This document shows, in pieces, positions 31,174 to 54,798 of a DNA stretch of 64,000 nt. Below the pieces are notes generated by a model, which was not told where the DNA came from, searched no databases, and saw only the letters and a list, made by a program, of their open reading frames with translations. The DNA is from Marinobacter arenosus (lineage in GTDB: Bacteria; Pseudomonadota; Gammaproteobacteria; Pseudomonadales; Oleiphilaceae). The translations under genes were made by a program, and so were the position numbers. Each line of letters starts with the position of its first letter. The stretch's first letter is position 1. Where the stretch lies: positions 1,364,001 to 1,428,000 of the forward strand of contig NZ_JAHVAO010000001.1 in NCBI RefSeq assembly GCF_019264345.1, in the 5' to 3' direction.

Positions 31174-31791
31174 TCAGCCGTGGCGACGGCGACGGGCCAC
31201 GCCCATGCCGAGCAGGCTCAGCCCGAGCAAGGCAATGGAACCCGGCTCCGGGACCGAGGCGGTCACTTTCACGTCATCGAGGAAGTTACCGACGGTGCCG
31301 GTTTCGGGGATGACCGAGGTAAACGTCAGGGTGGTCAGCGCGGATGAGGCAACGAAGCTGCCCGTAAAGATGCTCCAGGCGCCGACAACGTGATCATCCA
31401 GGTTCCAGGTCATCCCTGGCATCACGGAGACGTCGAAGCTCTCGCTGTTGCTCTGGCGAGCCCGATAGGCAAAGCTCAGATCGTAGGACTGACCGATGGT
31501 GGTCGCAAAGCTCTGGAAAATACCGAATTCGCTGCCACTGTATGGGTGCGCGTTCAGCTCCGCGAACTGGCTGCCTTCGTGGGCGGTTACGCCACCGTAG
31601 TTGTCCCAGATTTCAATATTGTCCCCGTCCCAGCCGTCGACAGCGCCGGAACTGAAGTACTGCCAGCTTCCGGCCGCAACGTCCGGCTGTTCAAAGCCAC
31701 CGTTAACGATGAGATTGGCGCTGACTGGTGCTGCAGCAAGAAGTGAAACGCTAAGCGCGCTGACGGCGGCAAGACGACCGAAAAACTGCAT
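31174..31791 (-). CDS. PEP-CTERM sorting-domain protein
   Basis: 205 residues from the ATG at 31791 (AAGGA upstream). There is a signal peptide (about 1-24, ending PVSA). A jelly-roll-like domain follows, opening LIVNGGFEQPDVAAGSWQYF and including FGIFQSFATTIGQSYDLSFA. The C-terminus has the full tripartite sorting signal: SVPEPGSIALLGLSLLGMG, then VARRRRHG. Exosortase/EpsH systems cleave such proteins at the PEP motif for delivery to the cell surface, usually with exopolysaccharide. No exosortase gene lies in this window. The domain resembles the DUF642/CBM-like family of secreted proteins. Confidence 0.9.
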   Translation of the reverse strand: MQFFGRLAAVSALSVSLLAAAPVSANLIVNGGFEQPDVAAGSWQYFSSGAVDGWDGDNIEIWDNYGGVTAHEGSQFAELNAHPYSGSEFGIFQSFATTIGQSYDLSFAYRARQSNSESFDVSVMPGMTWNLDDHVVGAWSIFTGSFVASSALTTLTFTSVIPETGTVGNFLDDVKVTASVPEPGSIALLGLSLLGMGVARRRRHG

Positions 31792-31964
31792 GATGGATTC
31801 CTTTGTTGGCTGAGTTCCCTTTCCGGAACAGTCAGCAATCGGGGAACCAACTCTTAAATCCTGATTATCTTTCATACAGTTAGCGATACAGACGCGACAC
31901 ATTTCCGGCACACCTGTAAATTAACCTGACACCTGCTGTTACAGGTCTGTGACGCTTTCAGAGG

Positions 31965-32603: not shown

Positions 32604-32749
32604 GGCGAGGCCTCCTTGAGGGCTGAGGATTCACAAAGACTAGCCGATTTCCGATCGTCCTCAAGCCGAGTCGCATTGCACGGGTATTCCGGGAGAATCC
32701 AACTATCCTTACCGGAGGGTAGATTCGAAACCGATTGGAGCACCCGGCC

Positions 32750-34243
32750 ATGAAACCTGAACTCCCGAGATTGCCAGAGCTCAAGCTTGATGTGGACCAT
32801 CGCATTCCGGCCTCCTGGGATTTCGACACCGGGGTGAGCCTTATCATCCTGGTGCCAGAGAGCAACCACAACGCCCTGGGCAAAGCCCCCTGGGCCGATT
32901 ACCTGAAGCTGCGCCTGGCCGATTTCCCGGACAACGCCAACCCCATGCTCATATCCGGCCCCAGGGGGACCCGAGCCGCCATTGCCTTCGTGGCAGACGA
33001 CGTCGGCGGGTTTAAAGCCCTGAGCCAGGCACGCAAACTGATCGAACCGCTGTTGGCGGAGCGCTCCCGAAAGATCAACGTGATCTCCCTGCTCGAGCAG
33101 GAACAGGCGGGCTGTGTAATGGCGGAGGCCCTGGTCGCAGCAGCCTATGCGGCCCTGTTCCAGCCACCCAAAATTTCCGATGACGTACCCGACAAACTGC
33201 CGCTGTCGGCCATGAACTTCTTCGGGGGCTTCGAGACCGCCGACTTCCGGTACGTCAAAGCGACGGCCGAAGGCAATAACCTGGCCCGCTGGCTGACCGA
33301 ACTGCCGGGCAACTACCTGACGCCAGGCATCTACCGGGAATACGCCGAAGCACTGGCCAAGGTGGAGGGCTGGGACGCCCAGTTCTACGACCTGGACCAA
33401 CTCGAACGGCTTGAGGCCGGTGCGTTCCTGTCTGTGGTGGAGGCCAGCCCGAATCGGGACGCCGGCATCCTGCAGCTGCAATACCGCCTGAAAGGATCGG
33501 GGGATAATCCGTTAGCCCTGGTCGGCAAGGGCATCTGTTTTGATACCGGCGGCAGCAACCTCAAGGTGGGCGGCAGCATGCTGGGCATGCACGGCGACAT
33601 GCAAGGCAGCGCGGTAGCACTGGGCACCCTGCTCGCGCTGACCCGCCTGAATTTCTCGCAACCGGTGGACTGCTGGCTGGCCCTGGCGGAAAACCACATC
33701 GGTTCCAGGGCCGTGAAGTGCAACGACGTGGTGACCGCCATGAACGGTCGAACCATCGAACTGATCAACACCGACGCCGAGGGCCGCATGGTGCTGGCCG
33801 ACACCCTCGCCCTGGCCTGCCGGCGCAAGCCGCGCGCTATCCTGGATTACGCCACCTTGACCGGCGCCGTTGTCTCGGCGCTGGGGCAACGCATGGCCGG
33901 CGCCATGACCAACCGGCGAAACTGGATTGAGCCCATCATACAGACCGGTGAACACTGCGGTGAGCGGGTGTGGCCCTTCCCCTATGAAGACGACTACGAC
34001 GAGGACCTGAAATCGGAGGTTGCGGACACGCTGCAATGCCGCACCGAGGGCGCCGGCGACCACATCTACGCGGCGCGGTTCCTTGGAAAGTTCGTGGACA
34101 AGGGCGTCGACTGGGTACATATGGACATGGCCTCGACCGGCAGCCGCAAGGGCGGGCTGGCCCACATCCCCACCGACCATCAGGGGTTCGGGGTTCGCTT
34201 TGGGGTTGAGTGGTTCAACCGGATCGCCGAGGGCATTGTGTGA
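32750..34243 (+). CDS. Leucyl aminopeptidase family M17 protein
   Basis: 497 residues. The M17 metal-site sequences are intact: LVGKGICFDTGGSNLK (Lys and Asp ligands), then MLGMHGDMQGSAVALGTLLA and the signature NTDAEGRMVLADTLALACR. The N-terminal domain is divergent from PepA, and the C-terminal half contains DWVHMDMASTGSRKGGLAHI. These cytoplasmic hexamers remove N-terminal residues using two divalent metals. The ATG at 32750 follows a GGAG. A TTG 15 bp upstream is possible but not needed. Confidence 0.9.
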   Translation: MKPELPRLPELKLDVDHRIPASWDFDTGVSLIILVPESNHNALGKAPWADYLKLRLADFPDNANPMLISGPRGTRAAIAFVADDVGGFKALSQARKLIEPLLAERSRKINVISLLEQEQAGCVMAEALVAAAYAALFQPPKISDDVPDKLPLSAMNFFGGFETADFRYVKATAEGNNLARWLTELPGNYLTPGIYREYAEALAKVEGWDAQFYDLDQLERLEAGAFLSVVEASPNRDAGILQLQYRLKGSGDNPLALVGKGICFDTGGSNLKVGGSMLGMHGDMQGSAVALGTLLALTRLNFSQPVDCWLALAENHIGSRAVKCNDVVTAMNGRTIELINTDAEGRMVLADTLALACRRKPRAILDYATLTGAVVSALGQRMAGAMTNRRNWIEPIIQTGEHCGERVWPFPYEDDYDEDLKSEVADTLQCRTEGAGDHIYAARFLGKFVDKGVDWVHMDMASTGSRKGGLAHIPTDHQGFGVRFGVEWFNRIAEGIV

Positions 34244-34580
34244 CCCCCATGCCCCGCCCGGTCAATTAACGGTCATATTCCCGGAACCCGCGATTTCAGG
34301 CGCTCCAGGCCACATGTCCTTACGTTGCCAACAAAGTTATCCACAGATTTTGTGGGCAAGTTTTCGAGCCTGCGGGTGGATAACCGGTTTTCATACCATG
34401 TTATTGGTTGCGCCCATCACAGACGTCAAATGATTCCGTGGCATGGGGCGCGGCACTGAGCTAAGCTCTTGTTTTATCGATTTATGCGCTGTTCGATTGA
34501 CGGTTCTGAGTCTGTAATAACGACGCAGTCAACTTTCCGCAAGGACGAAGCGCGCTGCCTGATTGCTGTAAAAAACTTAT
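34244..34580. other. Intergenic region at the left border of the cassette-like island
   Basis: The 337 bp hold no convincing gene. They contain the second opposed DnaA-box-like element (34337-34359), a further TTATCCACC-type box near 34375-34383 on the minus strand, and then a fall in GC from about 34,430 onward. I find no tRNA, integrase or attI-type site. The change in base composition suggests the left junction of transferred DNA lies here. Confidence 0.5.
34337..34359. repeat. Opposed DnaA-box-like element, copy 2
   Basis: TTATCCACA (a perfect DnaA box) and TGTGGGCAA face each other across GATTT. Read on the minus strand the element is identical to the copy at 31010-31032 except for one base. 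Both lie between genes, about 100-160 bp from the nearest stop codons. Confidence 0.7.
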
Positions 34581-34937
34581 ATGGATCTATCTAGCTACCA
34601 TCCTTCGGCTATCGCAATCGCCATCGTCCTAGCCACAATGCTTACCACCAGTTTTGTGCAATGGACGTTCTTGATTAAGTTGAGGCGGCGCCATTCTTTT
34701 CAGTGGCGCCATGCTGGAACGCCTACCATTTGGAGCGACCAAAGCTTCATGAGTGCATGGCCTACTATCCGGTATCTTCAAAACCAGAGTTACTGGAGTA
34801 GCGGTGATGAAGCAGGTGCACATTTTTGCCACCGATTTCGTTTGCCCATGGTGCTGGGTTATTGGCTAACTATATTAGTGTTCGTTGTTGGTGTAGCCGT
34901 GGTATTTAAATACGGGTTGCCAGCATCCTGGGACTAG
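34581..34937 (+). CDS. Small membrane protein in cassette-like island
   Basis: 118 residues with hydrophobic helices at about 10-32 and 90-112, joined by a soluble loop rich in W, H and R (QWRHAGTPTIWSDQSFMSAW, YLQNQSYWSSGDEAGAH). I recognise no family, but short two-helix proteins of this layout are common in integron gene cassettes. Base composition is markedly more AT-rich than the flanking aminopeptidase. There is no clear ribosome site. An attC-like hairpin begins 13 bp after the stop codon. Confidence 0.55.
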   Translation: MDLSSYHPSAIAIAIVLATMLTTSFVQWTFLIKLRRRHSFQWRHAGTPTIWSDQSFMSAWPTIRYLQNQSYWSSGDEAGAHFCHRFRLPMVLGYWLTILVFVVGVAVVFKYGLPASWD

Positions 34938-34950
34938 TTTTTAACAAGGT

Positions 34951-35010
34951 GGTCAACGGGACGCCAACTCCGCTGTGCGCCGTTGCCGCCCATTACCACT
35001 GGCGTTGACC
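34951..35010 (+). repeat. attC-like hairpin A
   Basis: The 60-bp element starts GGTCAAC and ends GTTGACC, a perfectly complementary pair that fits the integron core consensus RYYYAAC/GTTRRRY at six of seven positions. Inside are complementary arms (ACGGGACGCCAAC against GTTGCCGCCCAT, with mismatches) around a loop. It separates the small membrane protein gene from the GNAT gene, whose start lies 16 bp after the GTTGACC core. That is the usual arrangement of gene cassettes. Confidence 0.5.
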
Positions 35011-35025
35011 AAAGGAAAATTCCCC

Positions 35026-35562
35026 TTGAAACCCGATTTTACTGTTAGGAATGAAACAAGCGTCGACGTCAGCGCAATTAGAGAAGTGACAATCGCTGCC
35101 TTCAATACGCTGGAGATCAGCAACCACACGGAGCAATTTATAATTGAGGCGCTGCGCGCTGAAAATGCCCTCACGGTATCGCTGGTCGCGGAGATGGATG
35201 GCCGAGTAATTGGTCACATTGCGTTCTCGCCCGTGACCATTTCCGACGGCACACCGGACTGGTACGGACTTGGACCTGTTTCGGTCTCGCCGGAATACCA
35301 GCGTCAGGGCATTGGCAAGGCTCTGATCCGCGAAGGATTGGCGCAACTTAAAGAGATGCATGCTCGCGGCTGTTGTCTCGTAGGGCATCCGGAGTACTAC
35401 AAGAAGTTCGGATTCGACATCTTTCCAGAACTTATCCATAAGGGAGTCCCACCGGAAGTCTTTCTTGCAATGTCTTTCGACGGGAATATTCCCCAAGGCA
35501 CTGTCACTTTCCACGAAGGATTCAAAGCGGATGGCCAACAAGAGCATGCAGGCGAAGCTTGA
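35026..35562 (+). CDS. GNAT-family N-acetyltransferase (YhbS-like)
   Basis: 178 residues from a TTG at 35026 that has AAAGGAAAA 7 bp upstream. A longer frame starts inside the attC-like element and is rejected. The acetyl-CoA-binding motif A is clear: GLGPVSVSPEYQRQGIGKAL, followed by LVGHPEYYKKFGFDI, typical of the YhbS branch. The substrate is unknown. The last residues (DGQQEHAGEA) run into the next attC-like element, as often seen in cassette genes. GC is lower than in neighbouring chromosomal genes. Confidence 0.82.
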   Translation: MKPDFTVRNETSVDVSAIREVTIAAFNTLEISNHTEQFIIEALRAENALTVSLVAEMDGRVIGHIAFSPVTISDGTPDWYGLGPVSVSPEYQRQGIGKALIREGLAQLKEMHARGCCLVGHPEYYKKFGFDIFPELIHKGVPPEVFLAMSFDGNIPQGTVTFHEGFKADGQQEHAGEA

Positions 35563-35589
35563 CAGCGCGCCTGACGCTCGGCGTTATGT
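35533..35589 (+). repeat. attC-like hairpin B
   Basis: The element runs from GGCCAAC to GTTATGT. Between these cores, GAGC pairs with GCTC and CAGGCG with CGCCTG, separated by unequal bulges (ATG on one side, AC on the other) and a 13-nt loop. A bulged two-step stem with CCAACAAG at the left and GGCGTTATG at the right is the normal form of integron attC sites. The VOC gene starts 24 bp after the right core, with AAAGGAGG between. Confidence 0.6.
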
Positions 35590-35613
35590 GTGCGAGATAG
35601 AAAGGAGGAACTG

Positions 35614-36021
35614 ATGAAATCCATTACGACCTCGCTCATGTTTGTCGGAGAACAGGCCGGGAAAGCCGAGGAGGCGATCAAGTTCTATACCTCTCTATTC
35701 CCTGGTTCAAAGATCATTGATCTTCAACGCTACGAAGCTGGCGAACATGAACCGGAAGGTTCTACCAAGATGGCCAGGTTTACGATAAACGGCACCGAGT
35801 TTATGGCGCTGGACAGCCATCTTGACCACCAATTTACCTTTACACCCTCGATGTCATTGTACGTTGAGTGTGAATCAATGAGCGAAATAGAGAAGGCATT
35901 TCAGGCCCTCGCCGAAGGTGGCTCAGAGCTAATGCCTCTGGATGACTATGGTTTTAGCCAAAGATTTGGATGGTTGAATGATAGGTATGGCGTTTCCTGG
36001 CAGCTCAATCTGTTGAGCTAG
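35614..36021 (+). CDS. VOC-family (PhnB-like) protein
   Basis: 135 residues of the vicinal-oxygen-chelate fold in the PhnB/3-demethylubiquinone-methyltransferase-like branch. Two beta-alpha-beta modules are seen: EAIKFYTSLFPGSKIIDLQRY with FTINGTEFMALDSH, and MSLYVECESMSEIEKAFQ with GWLNDRYGVSWQLNL. AAAGGAGG precedes the ATG. The catalytic role of this branch is mostly unknown. It sits between two attC-like elements in the lower-GC island. Confidence 0.82.
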   Translation: MKSITTSLMFVGEQAGKAEEAIKFYTSLFPGSKIIDLQRYEAGEHEPEGSTKMARFTINGTEFMALDSHLDHQFTFTPSMSLYVECESMSEIEKAFQALAEGGSELMPLDDYGFSQRFGWLNDRYGVSWQLNLLS

Positions 36022-36115
36022 AGTGTTGGCAGCATCAACACATAATCATGCGCAGCACGACGCAGCCTCCTGCTGCTTGAAGCTCGCAAGCTCGCGCCGG
36101 TTTGCGCGGCGTTAA
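36022..36115 (+). repeat. Possible attC-like element C, degenerate
   Basis: The 94 bp after the VOC stop codon contain several short inverted repeats (GTGTTG with CAACAC, GCAGC with GCTGC, GCTTG with CAAGC) and end with GCGTTAAGGC. The last is close to an integron right core. The MAPEG gene starts about 24 bp later behind AAAGGAGG. The left core is not clear, so the assignment is weak and rests on position. Confidence 0.35.
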
Positions 36116-36134
36116 GGCAAAAGGAGGTTGACCG

Positions 36135-36542
36135 ATGAGCACGTCGGCTCAGGTACTTGGACTCTTCATCTCTTGGGCGCTTCTACTTGTCGTGCTCATG
36201 GAGGCAAGTCGCTGTTATTTCCTCATCAAAGGTCGCATTCGTTCCAATGAGTTCAAGCCGGACAATTCGAACTTACCCCCCTTCATGCAGCGCTTGGCCA
36301 GAGCGCACGCGAACTGCATTGAAGGCCTTCCTGTTTTCGGTGGACTTCTAATCTTGGCACTCGTGACCGACCAAACCGAGATCACGGACGCCTTGGCACC
36401 ATGGTTCTTGCTCGCGCGAGTGGCGCAGTCAAGCATTCATGTCGCCTCGTTGAGCGTGGTCGCGGTCAATGCCAGGTTTGCCACCTTCGTAGTGCAAGTG
36501 GGCATCGCGTTGTATTGGGCATGGGCACTGGTCTTAAGCTAA
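36135..36542 (+). CDS. MAPEG-family membrane protein
   Basis: 135 residues with four membrane helices (about 5-25, 58-76, 82-102, 112-133). The MAPEG signature is in the second helix: RLARAHANCIEGLPVFGGLL, where RAH.N..E binds glutathione in the eukaryotic members. Bacterial members are mostly uncharacterised, and glutathione transferase or peroxidase activity is possible. AAAGGAGG precedes the ATG. Only 14 bp separate it from the next small gene, with no attC-like site between, so these two may share one cassette. Confidence 0.82.
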   Translation: MSTSAQVLGLFISWALLLVVLMEASRCYFLIKGRIRSNEFKPDNSNLPPFMQRLARAHANCIEGLPVFGGLLILALVTDQTEITDALAPWFLLARVAQSSIHVASLSVVAVNARFATFVVQVGIALYWAWALVLS

Positions 36543-36556
36543 ATCGCGCATCAACC

Positions 36557-36856
36557 ATGAATCAAGCTCAGCTATTCCAAAATTGGCAAATTCCGTTTAT
36601 TCCTATGGGACGAGAATGTGTTGTCTCAAGAGCTAAAGCTGCTGAAGTAATCAGGCAAATATATAGTAATGGTTTCGTCTTTCTAGGCTACGACGCTTTT
36701 ACCGTTTTTCCCGACGGCAGGAGGCAACCCATAACCGATTTTTGTGCATCTTTTTATGCAAACGATCAACCTCGCCTCGATGAAGCATTGAACTCGCTGA
36801 AAGAAGCCCCTTCGCGGGTAACACACTATGTCTTTATCTTTAGGTTCAGCGTCTAA
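36557..36856 (+). CDS. Hypothetical protein in cassette-like island
   Basis: 99 residues starting MNQAQLFQNWQIPFIPMGRE. The predicted fold mixes strands and helices (KAAEVIRQIYSNGFVFLGYD, then DQPRLDEALNSLKEAPSRVT and HYVFIFRFSV). I do not recognise a family. Codon use is AT-rich like the GNAT and VOC genes. The stop codon lies inside GTCTAAC (36851-36857), an exact match to the integron left-core consensus RYYYAAC, followed by AAGGCG as in many attC sites. The rest of that site appears lost. Confidence 0.6.
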   Translation: MNQAQLFQNWQIPFIPMGRECVVSRAKAAEVIRQIYSNGFVFLGYDAFTVFPDGRRQPITDFCASFYANDQPRLDEALNSLKEAPSRVTHYVFIFRFSV

Positions 36857-36866
36857 CAAGGCGAAA
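36851..36866 (+). repeat. Orphan attC left core
   Basis: GTCTAACAAGGCG matches the RYYYAAC left core with the downstream AAGGCG typical of attC sites. No matching GTTRRRY right core is found within the next 50 bp, so this looks like a truncated recombination site. Confidence 0.4.
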
Positions 36867-36904
36867 TACTCGCGTGCTTTGCTTTAGATACCACTAGGAA
36901 ATTT

Positions 36905-37108
36905 ATGAGTCCTCCATTCGTCTGCAGAATTTGTGGCGAAGCAATACAGATTGGCCGGCACGGTAGCGGTTGGCGCCACGCCTCTGGTGGACATTCAAAT
37001 CACAGAGTTATCAAGACCGCGCGTGAGGATTACCGTGAGCAGATTCAGCGTGAAGATATTGGCGCTGGTGGTTTGCGGCCTTACGGCGAGAAAAACGATA
37101 AAGCCTAA
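36905..37108 (+). CDS. Small cysteine/histidine protein, possible zinc finger
   Basis: 67 residues. The N-terminus has CRICGEAI followed by WRHASGGHSNHRV, giving a CxxC plus two or three histidines at a spacing suited to a single zinc-binding finger. The rest is charged and poorly structured. It ends just before the convergent metallopeptidase gene. A weak AGGAAA precedes the ATG. Small proteins of this type are frequent in integron cassettes. I treat it as probable, not certain. Confidence 0.5.
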   Translation: MSPPFVCRICGEAIQIGRHGSGWRHASGGHSNHRVIKTAREDYREQIQREDIGAGGLRPYGEKNDKA

Positions 37109-37193
37109 GACTACAAGGACTAAAGTATGTGGCCTGTGCAGGCACGGGACACTACTTTTCGTCGTGCGTCCCGGTTGTCGGCGTAATCCCCCC

Positions 37194-38159
37194 TCACCGC
37201 CCATGCGCCCCACGGCGCAGCCAGTTGTGCACAAACGCCAGTTTCTTCTGCGCCGTTTCCGACAGCACAAACGGATAGAGATCCGAGAGTCCCATTGACC
37301 GGTTGACGTGGTTGACCCGGATCGCCAGTGAAGCGGCCACGTTGATCAGCTTTGCGGTGTCCGGTTCGGCGTAGGGGTCCCAGCGGGCGCTGGGCAGCTC
37401 TGGTGAGGACAGTCCAGAGGCCACCGCGCTGTCGGTGATGTCCGTCAGGTGCAGCAGGTGGGCCGCCGTCTCTGCCCAGTCTTCATGGGGGTGTGCGGAT
37501 GCGTAGGAGGTCAGGTACGAGTGCTCCCAGCCCGGCGGCGGTCCTTGATGGTAGTGCCGTTGGAGTGCGGCCGGGTAATCCGCACGCTCGTCGCCGAACA
37601 TGTCCCGGAAGGCGTCCAGGAAATCTTCGCGCAGGCTCAGGCGCCACCAGAGCATGTGGGAGATCTCATGGCGCATGTGGCCAACCATGGTCCGGTAGGG
37701 TTCCTGCAGCGCCTGCCGGCGGGTGGCTCGCACCACCGGGTCGGCTTCGGCCACGCTGATGGTCACCACGCCATTGGCATGCCCCATGGCCACCGGCGTC
37801 AGCCCCTCTGCCAGCATGTGGAAAAGTGGGCGTGTGCCCGGGTCCTCCGGGCGGAACCAATGCCAGCGGCCGAGGTTATCGAGCACCCAGCGTTTCGCGG
37901 CCTCCGTTTCGGCCCAGTTAGGCATGGCGTTGGGAATGCTCGGATCCGGCGCCAGGGCCGTCATGGCGCAGGAGGCACAGAACGCCCCTTCCCTGGGAGC
38001 GATCCAGTTGCAGCCGATAACCTCACGGTTAGCACAGAACGGTCGCATCGGCAGGAAGGCCCGTGCCTGGGGATCGTAGGCGACGGGCGTTCCGTCGGCG
38101 GTGGCAAGGTTATCGAACCAGAGTGACCCGGAACCGAGCGGATTTGAGAATACCTGCAT
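37194..38159 (-). CDS. Zinc-ribbon metallopeptidase family protein (putative zinc-binding metallopeptidase)
   Basis: 321 residues from the ATG at 38159 with AGGAGT upstream. The N-terminal zinc ribbon uses RPFCANREVIGCNWI and EGAFCASCAMT (four cysteines in two pairs). The catalytic part contains the HExxH motif in MRHEISHMLWWRLS and a downstream glutamate in HEDWAETAAHLLHLTD, the layout of the gluzincin-like DUF2248/PF15887 family. No signal peptide is present, so it is cytoplasmic. The substrate is unknown. It borders the right end of the cassette-like island. Confidence 0.87.
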   Translation of the reverse strand: MQVFSNPLGSGSLWFDNLATADGTPVAYDPQARAFLPMRPFCANREVIGCNWIAPREGAFCASCAMTALAPDPSIPNAMPNWAETEAAKRWVLDNLGRWHWFRPEDPGTRPLFHMLAEGLTPVAMGHANGVVTISVAEADPVVRATRRQALQEPYRTMVGHMRHEISHMLWWRLSLREDFLDAFRDMFGDERADYPAALQRHYHQGPPPGWEHSYLTSYASAHPHEDWAETAAHLLHLTDITDSAVASGLSSPELPSARWDPYAEPDTAKLINVAASLAIRVNHVNRSMGLSDLYPFVLSETAQKKLAFVHNWLRRGAHGR

Positions 38160-38282
38160 GCTGCCGTAACTCCTGATGAGTGGCGCGGTATGGGGGCCGG
38201 CGCGAAAATCTCTCACCGGACTCCATCACCGTACAACCGGCAGGCAATCGGATTCAATGGGAAACACCGCCTGGCGGCCGAA

Positions 38283-54048: not shown

Positions 54049-54798
54049 CTAGAAGCCCCATGTCAGGCCGAGGGCAACGCCGTGTTGCCGGACATCGTAG
54101 ATAAATTGGTCTTTGTCGTAATCCACGTCGAACATGCGGTAGCCGACAGTGGTGCCAATCGCTGTCGTCCATTGATAACCGACGTTCACAGACGCGTCGT
54201 AGAACAGGTCGGAATTGACGCCAAAACCACCAAGGGCGGCCCAACCGGCAACGTAGAAGTTGGAGTCGCCCAGAGGGGTACGGCCCTTAAGACCAACCAT
54301 GGGATCAACCCATTCCTCGGTGTTACTAACCCTCCGCCCCGCCAGCACGCCAAGCCCGCCGCTAAACTGCAGCGTGATATCAATATCCCAGTAGCGAACA
54401 CCGGCAAAGCCATCCAGATTGGTGCCGCCATCATCGAGTAGCCGGTAGAGATACGCCGCCGAGACGATGGTGTTTTTGGATATTGATCGCAGTTTCAGGT
54501 CGATCTCGGGAACCAGTTCCTCGTCCGAGCGAGTGTCGGTGTAAATGAAATCCATCAGCAAACCGTGGCGCCCTTTTCTCGCGGTAAAGAGCACCATGTA
54601 ACTGGCTTCATTGTCGTCAAACGCGTCTTTAGCGCTGATGTCAATGGGTGCCGCCGGCAACGGTGGGGCGGCGGCCAAGTCACCTTTGCTTCCACCAAAC
54701 CACACGTAAGGACTAAGGGTGAACTGCCAGTCCTCACTTGCCAGGGCAGAGTTGGAAAGCGTTGCGGTCAGCGCCGCGATAGCCATGAGCTTTCTCAT
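54049..54798 (-). CDS. Predicted outer-membrane beta-barrel protein
   Basis: 249 residues with a signal peptide (LMAIAALTATLSNSALASED). The rest is built of alternating-hydrophobicity strands such as WQFTLSPYVWFGGSKGDLAA, VSAAYLYRLLDDGGTNLDGF and a C-terminal strand GYRMFDVDYDKDQFIYDVRQ ending in HGVALGLTWGF, a terminal-phenylalanine pattern for BAM-dependent barrels. About eight to ten strands would fit. No named family is recognised. It sits between the DUF3604 and DUF1254 genes with 15- and 28-bp gaps, so it is in the same operon. Confidence 0.8.
   Translation of the reverse strand: MRKLMAIAALTATLSNSALASEDWQFTLSPYVWFGGSKGDLAAAPPLPAAPIDISAKDAFDDNEASYMVLFTARKGRHGLLMDFIYTDTRSDEELVPEIDLKLRSISKNTIVSAAYLYRLLDDGGTNLDGFAGVRYWDIDITLQFSGGLGVLAGRRVSNTEEWVDPMVGLKGRTPLGDSNFYVAGWAALGGFGVNSDLFYDASVNVGYQWTTAIGTTVGYRMFDVDYDKDQFIYDVRQHGVALGLTWGF

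Follow-up and report, generated by a model that had tools for sequence, protein, structure and literature searches.

The window analysed here is a 64-kb stretch of Marinobacter arenosus DNA (G000:C1:1364001-1428000, in a genome of 4.11 Mb and 8 contigs), and between two chromosomal genes it carries a 2.8-kb island (34363-37183) which is very probably a remnant integron, made up of an attI site and five gene cassettes with no integrase gene. Judged by its sequence, the 206-bp leader before cassette 1 is a homologue of the attI region upstream of a second type of Marinobacter integron integrase (IntI), and, because cassette 1 starts behind it at a G/T crossover (the slash marks crossovers throughout), the island can be described as a cluster of attC sites lacking an integron-integrase (CALIN) that keeps its attI. 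The leader, taken with an integron resident elsewhere in the same genome, therefore points to an attI-bearing remnant rather than to a bare cassette cluster. The island itself is of a known kind, and the unusual part is the attI homologue at its head. Its features and flanking genes are given below, with attC scores from R1, an attC profile of our own.

34363..34568 (206 bp), + strand: attI-like leader; crossover after 34568, GCTG/TAAAAAAC; left edge from the empty sites
34581..34937, + strand: cassette 1 gene, 118 aa, unknown, membrane-like; no Pfam match; 6 relatives, from a search that considered shared five-residue words only
34939-35010, + strand: attC A; R1 39.9 bits, E 2.4e-7 over 64 kb; crossover 35004/35005
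35026..35562, + strand: cassette 2 gene, GNAT acetyltransferase; PF00583 and related
35533-35589, + strand: attC B; R1 18.0 bits, E 0.028 over 64 kb; crossover 35583/35584
35614..36021, + strand: cassette 3 gene, VOC / 3-dmu-9_3-mt family; PF06983
36040-36117, + strand: attC C; R1 12.5 bits, E 0.5; crossover 36111/36112
36135..36542, + strand: cassette 4 first gene, MAPEG family; PF01124, E 5e-15
36560..36856, + strand: cassette 4 second gene, 98 aa, unknown; 9 relatives at 63-71%, from a search limited in the same way as for cassette 1
36851-36889, + strand: attC E, weak or truncated; R1 9.9 bits, E 2; starts GTCTAAC; crossover about 36882
36905..37108, + strand: cassette 5 gene, 67 aa, unknown; no Pfam match
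37109-37189, + strand: attC F, weak, probably decayed; R1 8.0 bits, E 5.4; crossover 37183/37184, the right edge of the island
32735..34243, + strand: left flank, chromosomal M17 aminopeptidase gene; PF00883, E 8e-96
37194..38216, - strand: right flank, chromosomal putative zinc metallopeptidase gene; PF15887

The crossovers place the cassette limits at 34569-35004, 35005-35583, 35584-36111, 36112-36882 and 36883-37183, and the first open reading frame (ORF) begins 12-30 nt inside each cassette, that of cassette 1 lying 12 nt past the leader crossover and that of GNAT being read from a TTG behind AAAGGA, which is our choice over the GTG at 34975 in the ORF list. An earlier note, made from the letters of this stretch alone, had described a CALIN-like cassette island with six small ORFs in a row on one strand and a GC content below that of the flanks. 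The six + strand ORFs are confirmed by the ORF list and Pfam (the first, fifth and sixth proteins having no Pfam match), as is the composition, at 50.8% GC for 34363-37183 against 61.1% and 62.6% in the 5-kb flanks. The note's reading holds in that these are cassettes with attC sites; the extent proved larger, the cassettes number five rather than six, with MAPEG and the fifth ORF sharing one, and an attI-like leader stands at the start.

Comparison with sister genomes shows the island to be an insertion. The metallopeptidase of the right flank was matched in 51 of 100 genus genomes, and 30 such loci with 1.5-kb flanks were compared, one of them that of the window itself. In the other 29, no island protein of the six is encoded within those flanks (tblastn, E 1e-5), and two of these loci are empty sites, so the conserved gene order in relatives that the earlier note had proposed as grounds for discarding the island was not found. 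In four loci (L015, L019, L031 and L016) the aminopeptidase is found on the side that it occupies in the window; it adjoins the metallopeptidase, with no island, in the first three, and in L016 the gap holds a single oxidoreductase-like gene. The other 25 loci are uninformative on an empty site because the aminopeptidase is out of reach on that side. At the empty sites L015 and L019, homology runs to 34362 and 34364 and resumes at 37193 and 37192, with about 10 bp in between; the metallopeptidase of L015 (genome G016) is 94% identical to that of the window and contains one internal stop codon.

The profile R1 was built from 36 attC sites on contigs C6 and C7, picked by core patterns and including no window sequence, and has 79 positions and 3 pairs. 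Because RNAalifold on the MAFFT attC alignment gave only these 3 pairs, R1 is mostly a sequence profile, and position and homology were added as further tests. An unfiltered search of both strands of the 64 kb (E up to 10) returned six matches, five of which lie inside the island, all on the + strand and at cassette ends, the sole match outside being 54324-54380 at 8.3 bits; the naive probability of at least five of six falling in the island on that strand is 4.5e-8. A search with a profile from the same genome's integron thus found the attC sites whose absence would, by the earlier note, have counted against the cassettes. Only attC A is clearly significant alone, and its stretch matches many genus genomes at 83-96% identity, attC A as such being 92-96% like sites in many of them; attC E and attC F are not significant alone. 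The note's two attC-type hairpins were upheld by bottom-strand folding for attC A (z -2.81, 1 of 200 shuffles as good) and attC B (z -1.81, 12 of 200), and its GTCTAAC core, said to overlap the last stop codon, proved to lie at 36851-36857, over the stop of the fifth ORF. The left core of attC C is altered, reading ATAATC where relatives in the alignment have ATAACC, and R1 gives 20-47 bits to the same element where it follows the VOC gene in other genera. The set thus comprises one strong, two moderate and two weak sites, the weak two being probably decayed. That attC C, E and F have weak or altered cores suggests decay in part of the array. Rfam gave no match in the window at the gathering score and none in 34200-37250 at E up to 1.

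GNAT and VOC cassettes also occur at other loci. The VOC unit was found elsewhere in a search of 124 genus genomes, and in G074, G038 and G107 the match runs from 35576-35581 to 36114-36118, so that both ends fall within about 8 bp of the cassette limits; other matches in the genus end sooner. The VOC protein was found at 45 loci, with 87-95% identity in Pseudomonas, Halomonas, Microbulbifer, Methylophaga and others. An R1 match flanks it in 17 of 29 loci, ending about 25 nt before the start or beginning 22-32 nt past the match end, and in 4 of those 17 on both sides; where a downstream attC is recognisable, divergence sets in directly past GGCGTTA. The GNAT unit (window 34985-35563) recurs at 94% identity at another locus of G016, within a row of attC matches, and G016 has no IntI match at E 1e-60.

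The leader carries the case for an attI. Window 34380-34584 matches many genus genomes, and the closest relative, at 77% over 181 nt, is a leader of G016 beside an intI remnant (residues 2-123 matched at 45%). The identity to the intI-adjacent leader of G001 is 72% over 183 nt. A leader homologue lies 61-62 bp from a full-length type-2 IntI match in five genomes (G001, G078, G011, G085 and G013) and 63 bp from a partial one in G012, these intI-linked leaders being 68-72% identical to a dispersed leader copy. The order in G001 (L187) is intI, leader and then attC matches all on the other strand, which is that of a canonical integron. By homology, then, a putative attI precedes the first cassette of the island. 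The idea that the leader is instead a gene-less cassette ending in attC was rejected, its 3' end scoring 2.7 bits with R1 and folding no better than shuffles (z +1.15). Conserved structure in the leader is weak (21 predicted pairs, of which 5 show any double change, at an energy of -3.7). Because no sigma-70-like promoter match was found inside the leader, transcription from it is unproven; any such transcription, like the present activity or inactivity of the array, would be a matter of inference.

The earlier note's statement that no integrase is present holds for the 64-kb window, which has no TIGR02249 match, but a complete integron integrase is encoded on contig C5 of the same genome (C5:513-1448, L009; TIGR02249 427 bits, cut-off 265), with a LexA-box-like CTGTACATAAATACAG upstream, identified by eye. 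The type-2 IntI of G078 is 49% identical to this resident IntI, and the region upstream of the C5 intI differs from the leader, which has no match there. Cassette arrays lie on C6 (L011) and C7 (L012), the long arrays being split over contigs, and R1 gave at least 67 matches genome-wide at E up to 1 (the best 150 of 2571 first-look candidates having been scored), mostly on C6 and C7 and towards the ends of C1, C2 and C3, as is expected because a large array breaks the assembly. One cassette gene of about 120 bp is present both at the end of C7 and, in the opposite orientation, at the start of C5. Lone strong attC matches, possibly lone cassettes, lie off the main clusters at G000:C1:1636273-1636358, G000:C3:277486-277569 and G000:C1:26373-26450 (71.9, 63.7 and 43.5 bits, respectively). 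The nearest intI-type match on the contig of the window is a 106-aa ORF (C1:2209010-2209246; L006, L010) that covers only the N-terminal quarter of the TIGR02249 model. Among the matches listed for G084, which is a single contig, attC clusters lie beside intI (1627 kb) at about 1618-1626 kb and far from it at about 1991-2013 and 3403-3407 kb; across the part of the genus sampled here, clusters of cassettes that lack intI are common. Elsewhere in the window, the protein of 31174-31911 ends in VPEPGSIALLGLSLLGMGVARRRRHG, which by eye we take to be a PEP-CTERM-type sorting signal.

IntI-free relatives of the leader form a dispersed family. With one leader copy as query against the 124 genus genomes (E 1e-6, at most 6 candidates scored per genome), 60 genomes gave a leader match, intI-linked ones included. 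Among the matches listed, identity reaches 78% or more across most of the query in 64 copies from 43 genomes, the intI-linked leaders falling among matches at 68-73%. The 37 genomes that hold 56 of the 64 copies were also searched for IntI, and the nearest match on the same contig was 105 kb away. An order-level sample of 194 genomes held 8 with a match, 7 from this genus (the present genome included) and 1 from another genus of the family; two partial matches lie on plasmids of M. nauticus VT8, and a phage collection gave none. The tree of 29 leaders, which is unrooted, drawn at the midpoint and without a settled bootstrap, sets 24 dispersed copies on one side (98/98), and on the other the window leader, the G016 relic, a second copy from the same genome as the window and two intI-adjacent leaders. 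In the alignment the window leader lacks the common left end of the dispersed clade, TAAACAAAAGCGAACATTC. With neither the grouping nor the shared end, it does not belong to that clade, and from its placement it is therefore a relative rather than a member. The second copy (L184, G000:C1:2282027-2282167) is 72% identical to the query, and 18 nt beyond it lies a 212-aa ORF with a start like that of a HAD hydrolase; there is no attC match in its locus.

Homology among the leaders mostly stops at query position 175-181, which is the G/TT point, and the longest nearby ORF begins 2-53 nt past it in 39 of 42 non-redundant leaders, a count favoured by the choice of the longest ORF and including 4 ORFs of fewer than 60 aa. 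In 12 of 29 larger-locus leaders an R1 attC starts where this ORF ends or no more than about 30 nt from that end; in the other 17 it does not. The first proteins behind 36 leaders are mostly mutually unrelated, with two near-identical pairs. Checked with PADLOC for a defence role, these 36 proteins matched 11 families, one of them through two proteins and each of the others through a single one. The cassette behind a G040 leader (L188) recurs at 80-92% identity in other genomes, and none of the 11 other loci that were examined has a leader in front of it; in G105 and G022 this cassette sits behind an attC with the same junction, G/TTAGGCTTC. Likewise, the cassette of L179 sits behind an attC in L273 and L274. 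An R1 attC ends at the junction in 4 of 15 other copies of these two cassettes, and several of the upstream regions are unrecognisable to R1. To judge from such junctions, leaders have been crossover points. Two leader-cassette pairs that recur jointly at 97% with different left flanks count against free exchange, and leader and cassette can therefore also travel as one.

The left end TAAACAAAAGCGAACATTC is common to many leaders, often with an inverted copy 20-40 nt upstream. An inverted repeat, GAATGTTCGCTTT / AAAGCGAACATTC, flanks this end in many copies (for instance L163:2900-2960, L177 and L181) and may mark how leaders spread. No empty sites for the dispersed leaders L169 and L188 were found from their left flanks, which match repeated or island DNA; in G069 a stretch matching the left flank of a dispersed leader continues into a truncated leader.

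Since the leader groups with type-2 attI regions, a small type-2 integron is the likeliest origin of the island. Such an integron, placed in the gap between aminopeptidase and metallopeptidase, would have lost its intI up to about the start codon, the decay of attC at some sites coming after that loss. Each cassette consists of a small gene or a pair of them closed by an attC hairpin, and an integron integrase, formerly encoded at the island and since lost or else located elsewhere in the genome, would have joined them at the leader crossover (after 34568) or cassette to cassette. Several findings weigh against this account: the leader ends in G/TA and not in G/TT; attC C, E and F are weak and fold no better than shuffles (z -0.05, -0.59 and -0.67); and R1, by which they were recognised, reads mostly sequence, with 3 pairs. 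Furthermore, because the interval between leader and flank holds no intI remnant, the loss of intI is inferred.

The main rival, a possibility to which we give appreciably less credence, is that the leader came already without intI, from the dispersed family, and that an integrase acting in trans then loaded the cassettes. The some 64 intI-free copies in 43 genomes, none of the 56 that could be checked lying within 105 kb of an intI match on the same contig, are in its favour, as are the lack of any intI remnant in the window and the complete integrase elsewhere in the genome. However, the tree, unrooted and with its bootstrap unsettled, puts the window leader outside the 24-copy clade and with the intI-linked leaders, and the clade's left end is missing from it. 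An insertion of cassettes from the resident type-1 integron straight into a non-classical secondary site of the attG type, without any attI, was our first model after the empty sites and was dropped on the homology of the leader to intI-linked regions; it is now quite unlikely. The insertion is clean, its right edge lies at an attC crossover, attC A resembles the sites in the resident array, and events of this sort are described (PMC12901181, PMC12444791; off-target sites, PMC10127599), but an attI homologue unlike the region upstream of the resident C5 intI stands between the left flank and cassette 1, which contradicts the model for that cassette and leaves the later ones free to derive from the resident pool. 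An ordinary horizontally acquired operon or island, its attC-like elements being chance or unrelated hairpins, would suit the modest or weak scores of four of the five attC sites and the three proteins with no Pfam match, but is very improbable given the positions of the R1 matches at cassette ends, the confinement of homology to cassette limits and the attC beside the VOC gene in other genera.

Compared with known systems, the remnant integron proposed here comes closest to a CALIN, defined as two or more attC sites with no integron-integrase and common in genomes (PMC9024848); in Xanthomonas, CALINs are known at places other than the integron platform (PMC12444791). The island shares with these its clustered attC sites (39.9, 18.0 and 12.5 bits plus two weak ones with R1), in a single orientation between short ORFs of small cassettes, and the lack of an integron-integrase nearby; it differs in being headed by an attI homologue, on which the definition is silent. 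Insertion at attG sites (Loot et al. 2024, as cited in PMC12901181 and PMC12444791) likewise places cassettes away from the platform, but joins a cassette directly to its target, whereas here the leader intervenes before the first cassette. Delta-attI-type cassettes also carry attI-derived sequence away from its intI-adjacent place, although as described in PMC12901181 this is a partial attI in resistance cassettes of mobile integrons, and the island has a near-complete attI region with relatives dispersed in a genus. With the complete sedentary chromosomal integron of G001 the island has in common an attI region followed by cassettes with attC in one orientation; unlike it, the island has no intI at its platform, five cassettes only and attC sites that are partly decayed.

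The island led to the dispersed family of intI-free attI sites, which is where most of the interest lies. The usual reading of a CALIN is a decayed or split integron or an off-target insertion, and attI is generally taken to remain beside intI. A literature search in one open library found no intI-free attI family, although absence there is not absence from print. It is about an even call that the intI-free attI sites in Marinobacter are satellite docking sites derived from type-2 attI and loaded in trans from a common pool, with the leader, or the leader and its first cassette, spreading and the island of the window being an old relative. If this is true, small arrays would arise far from any integrase gene. 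Scattered through one genus, with the same G/TT junction behind attI leaders and behind attC, these attI-headed, integrase-free arrays offer a natural test system, so that the loading of cassettes in trans at a distant attI, and the spread of attI without intI, are questions that can be tested in Marinobacter.

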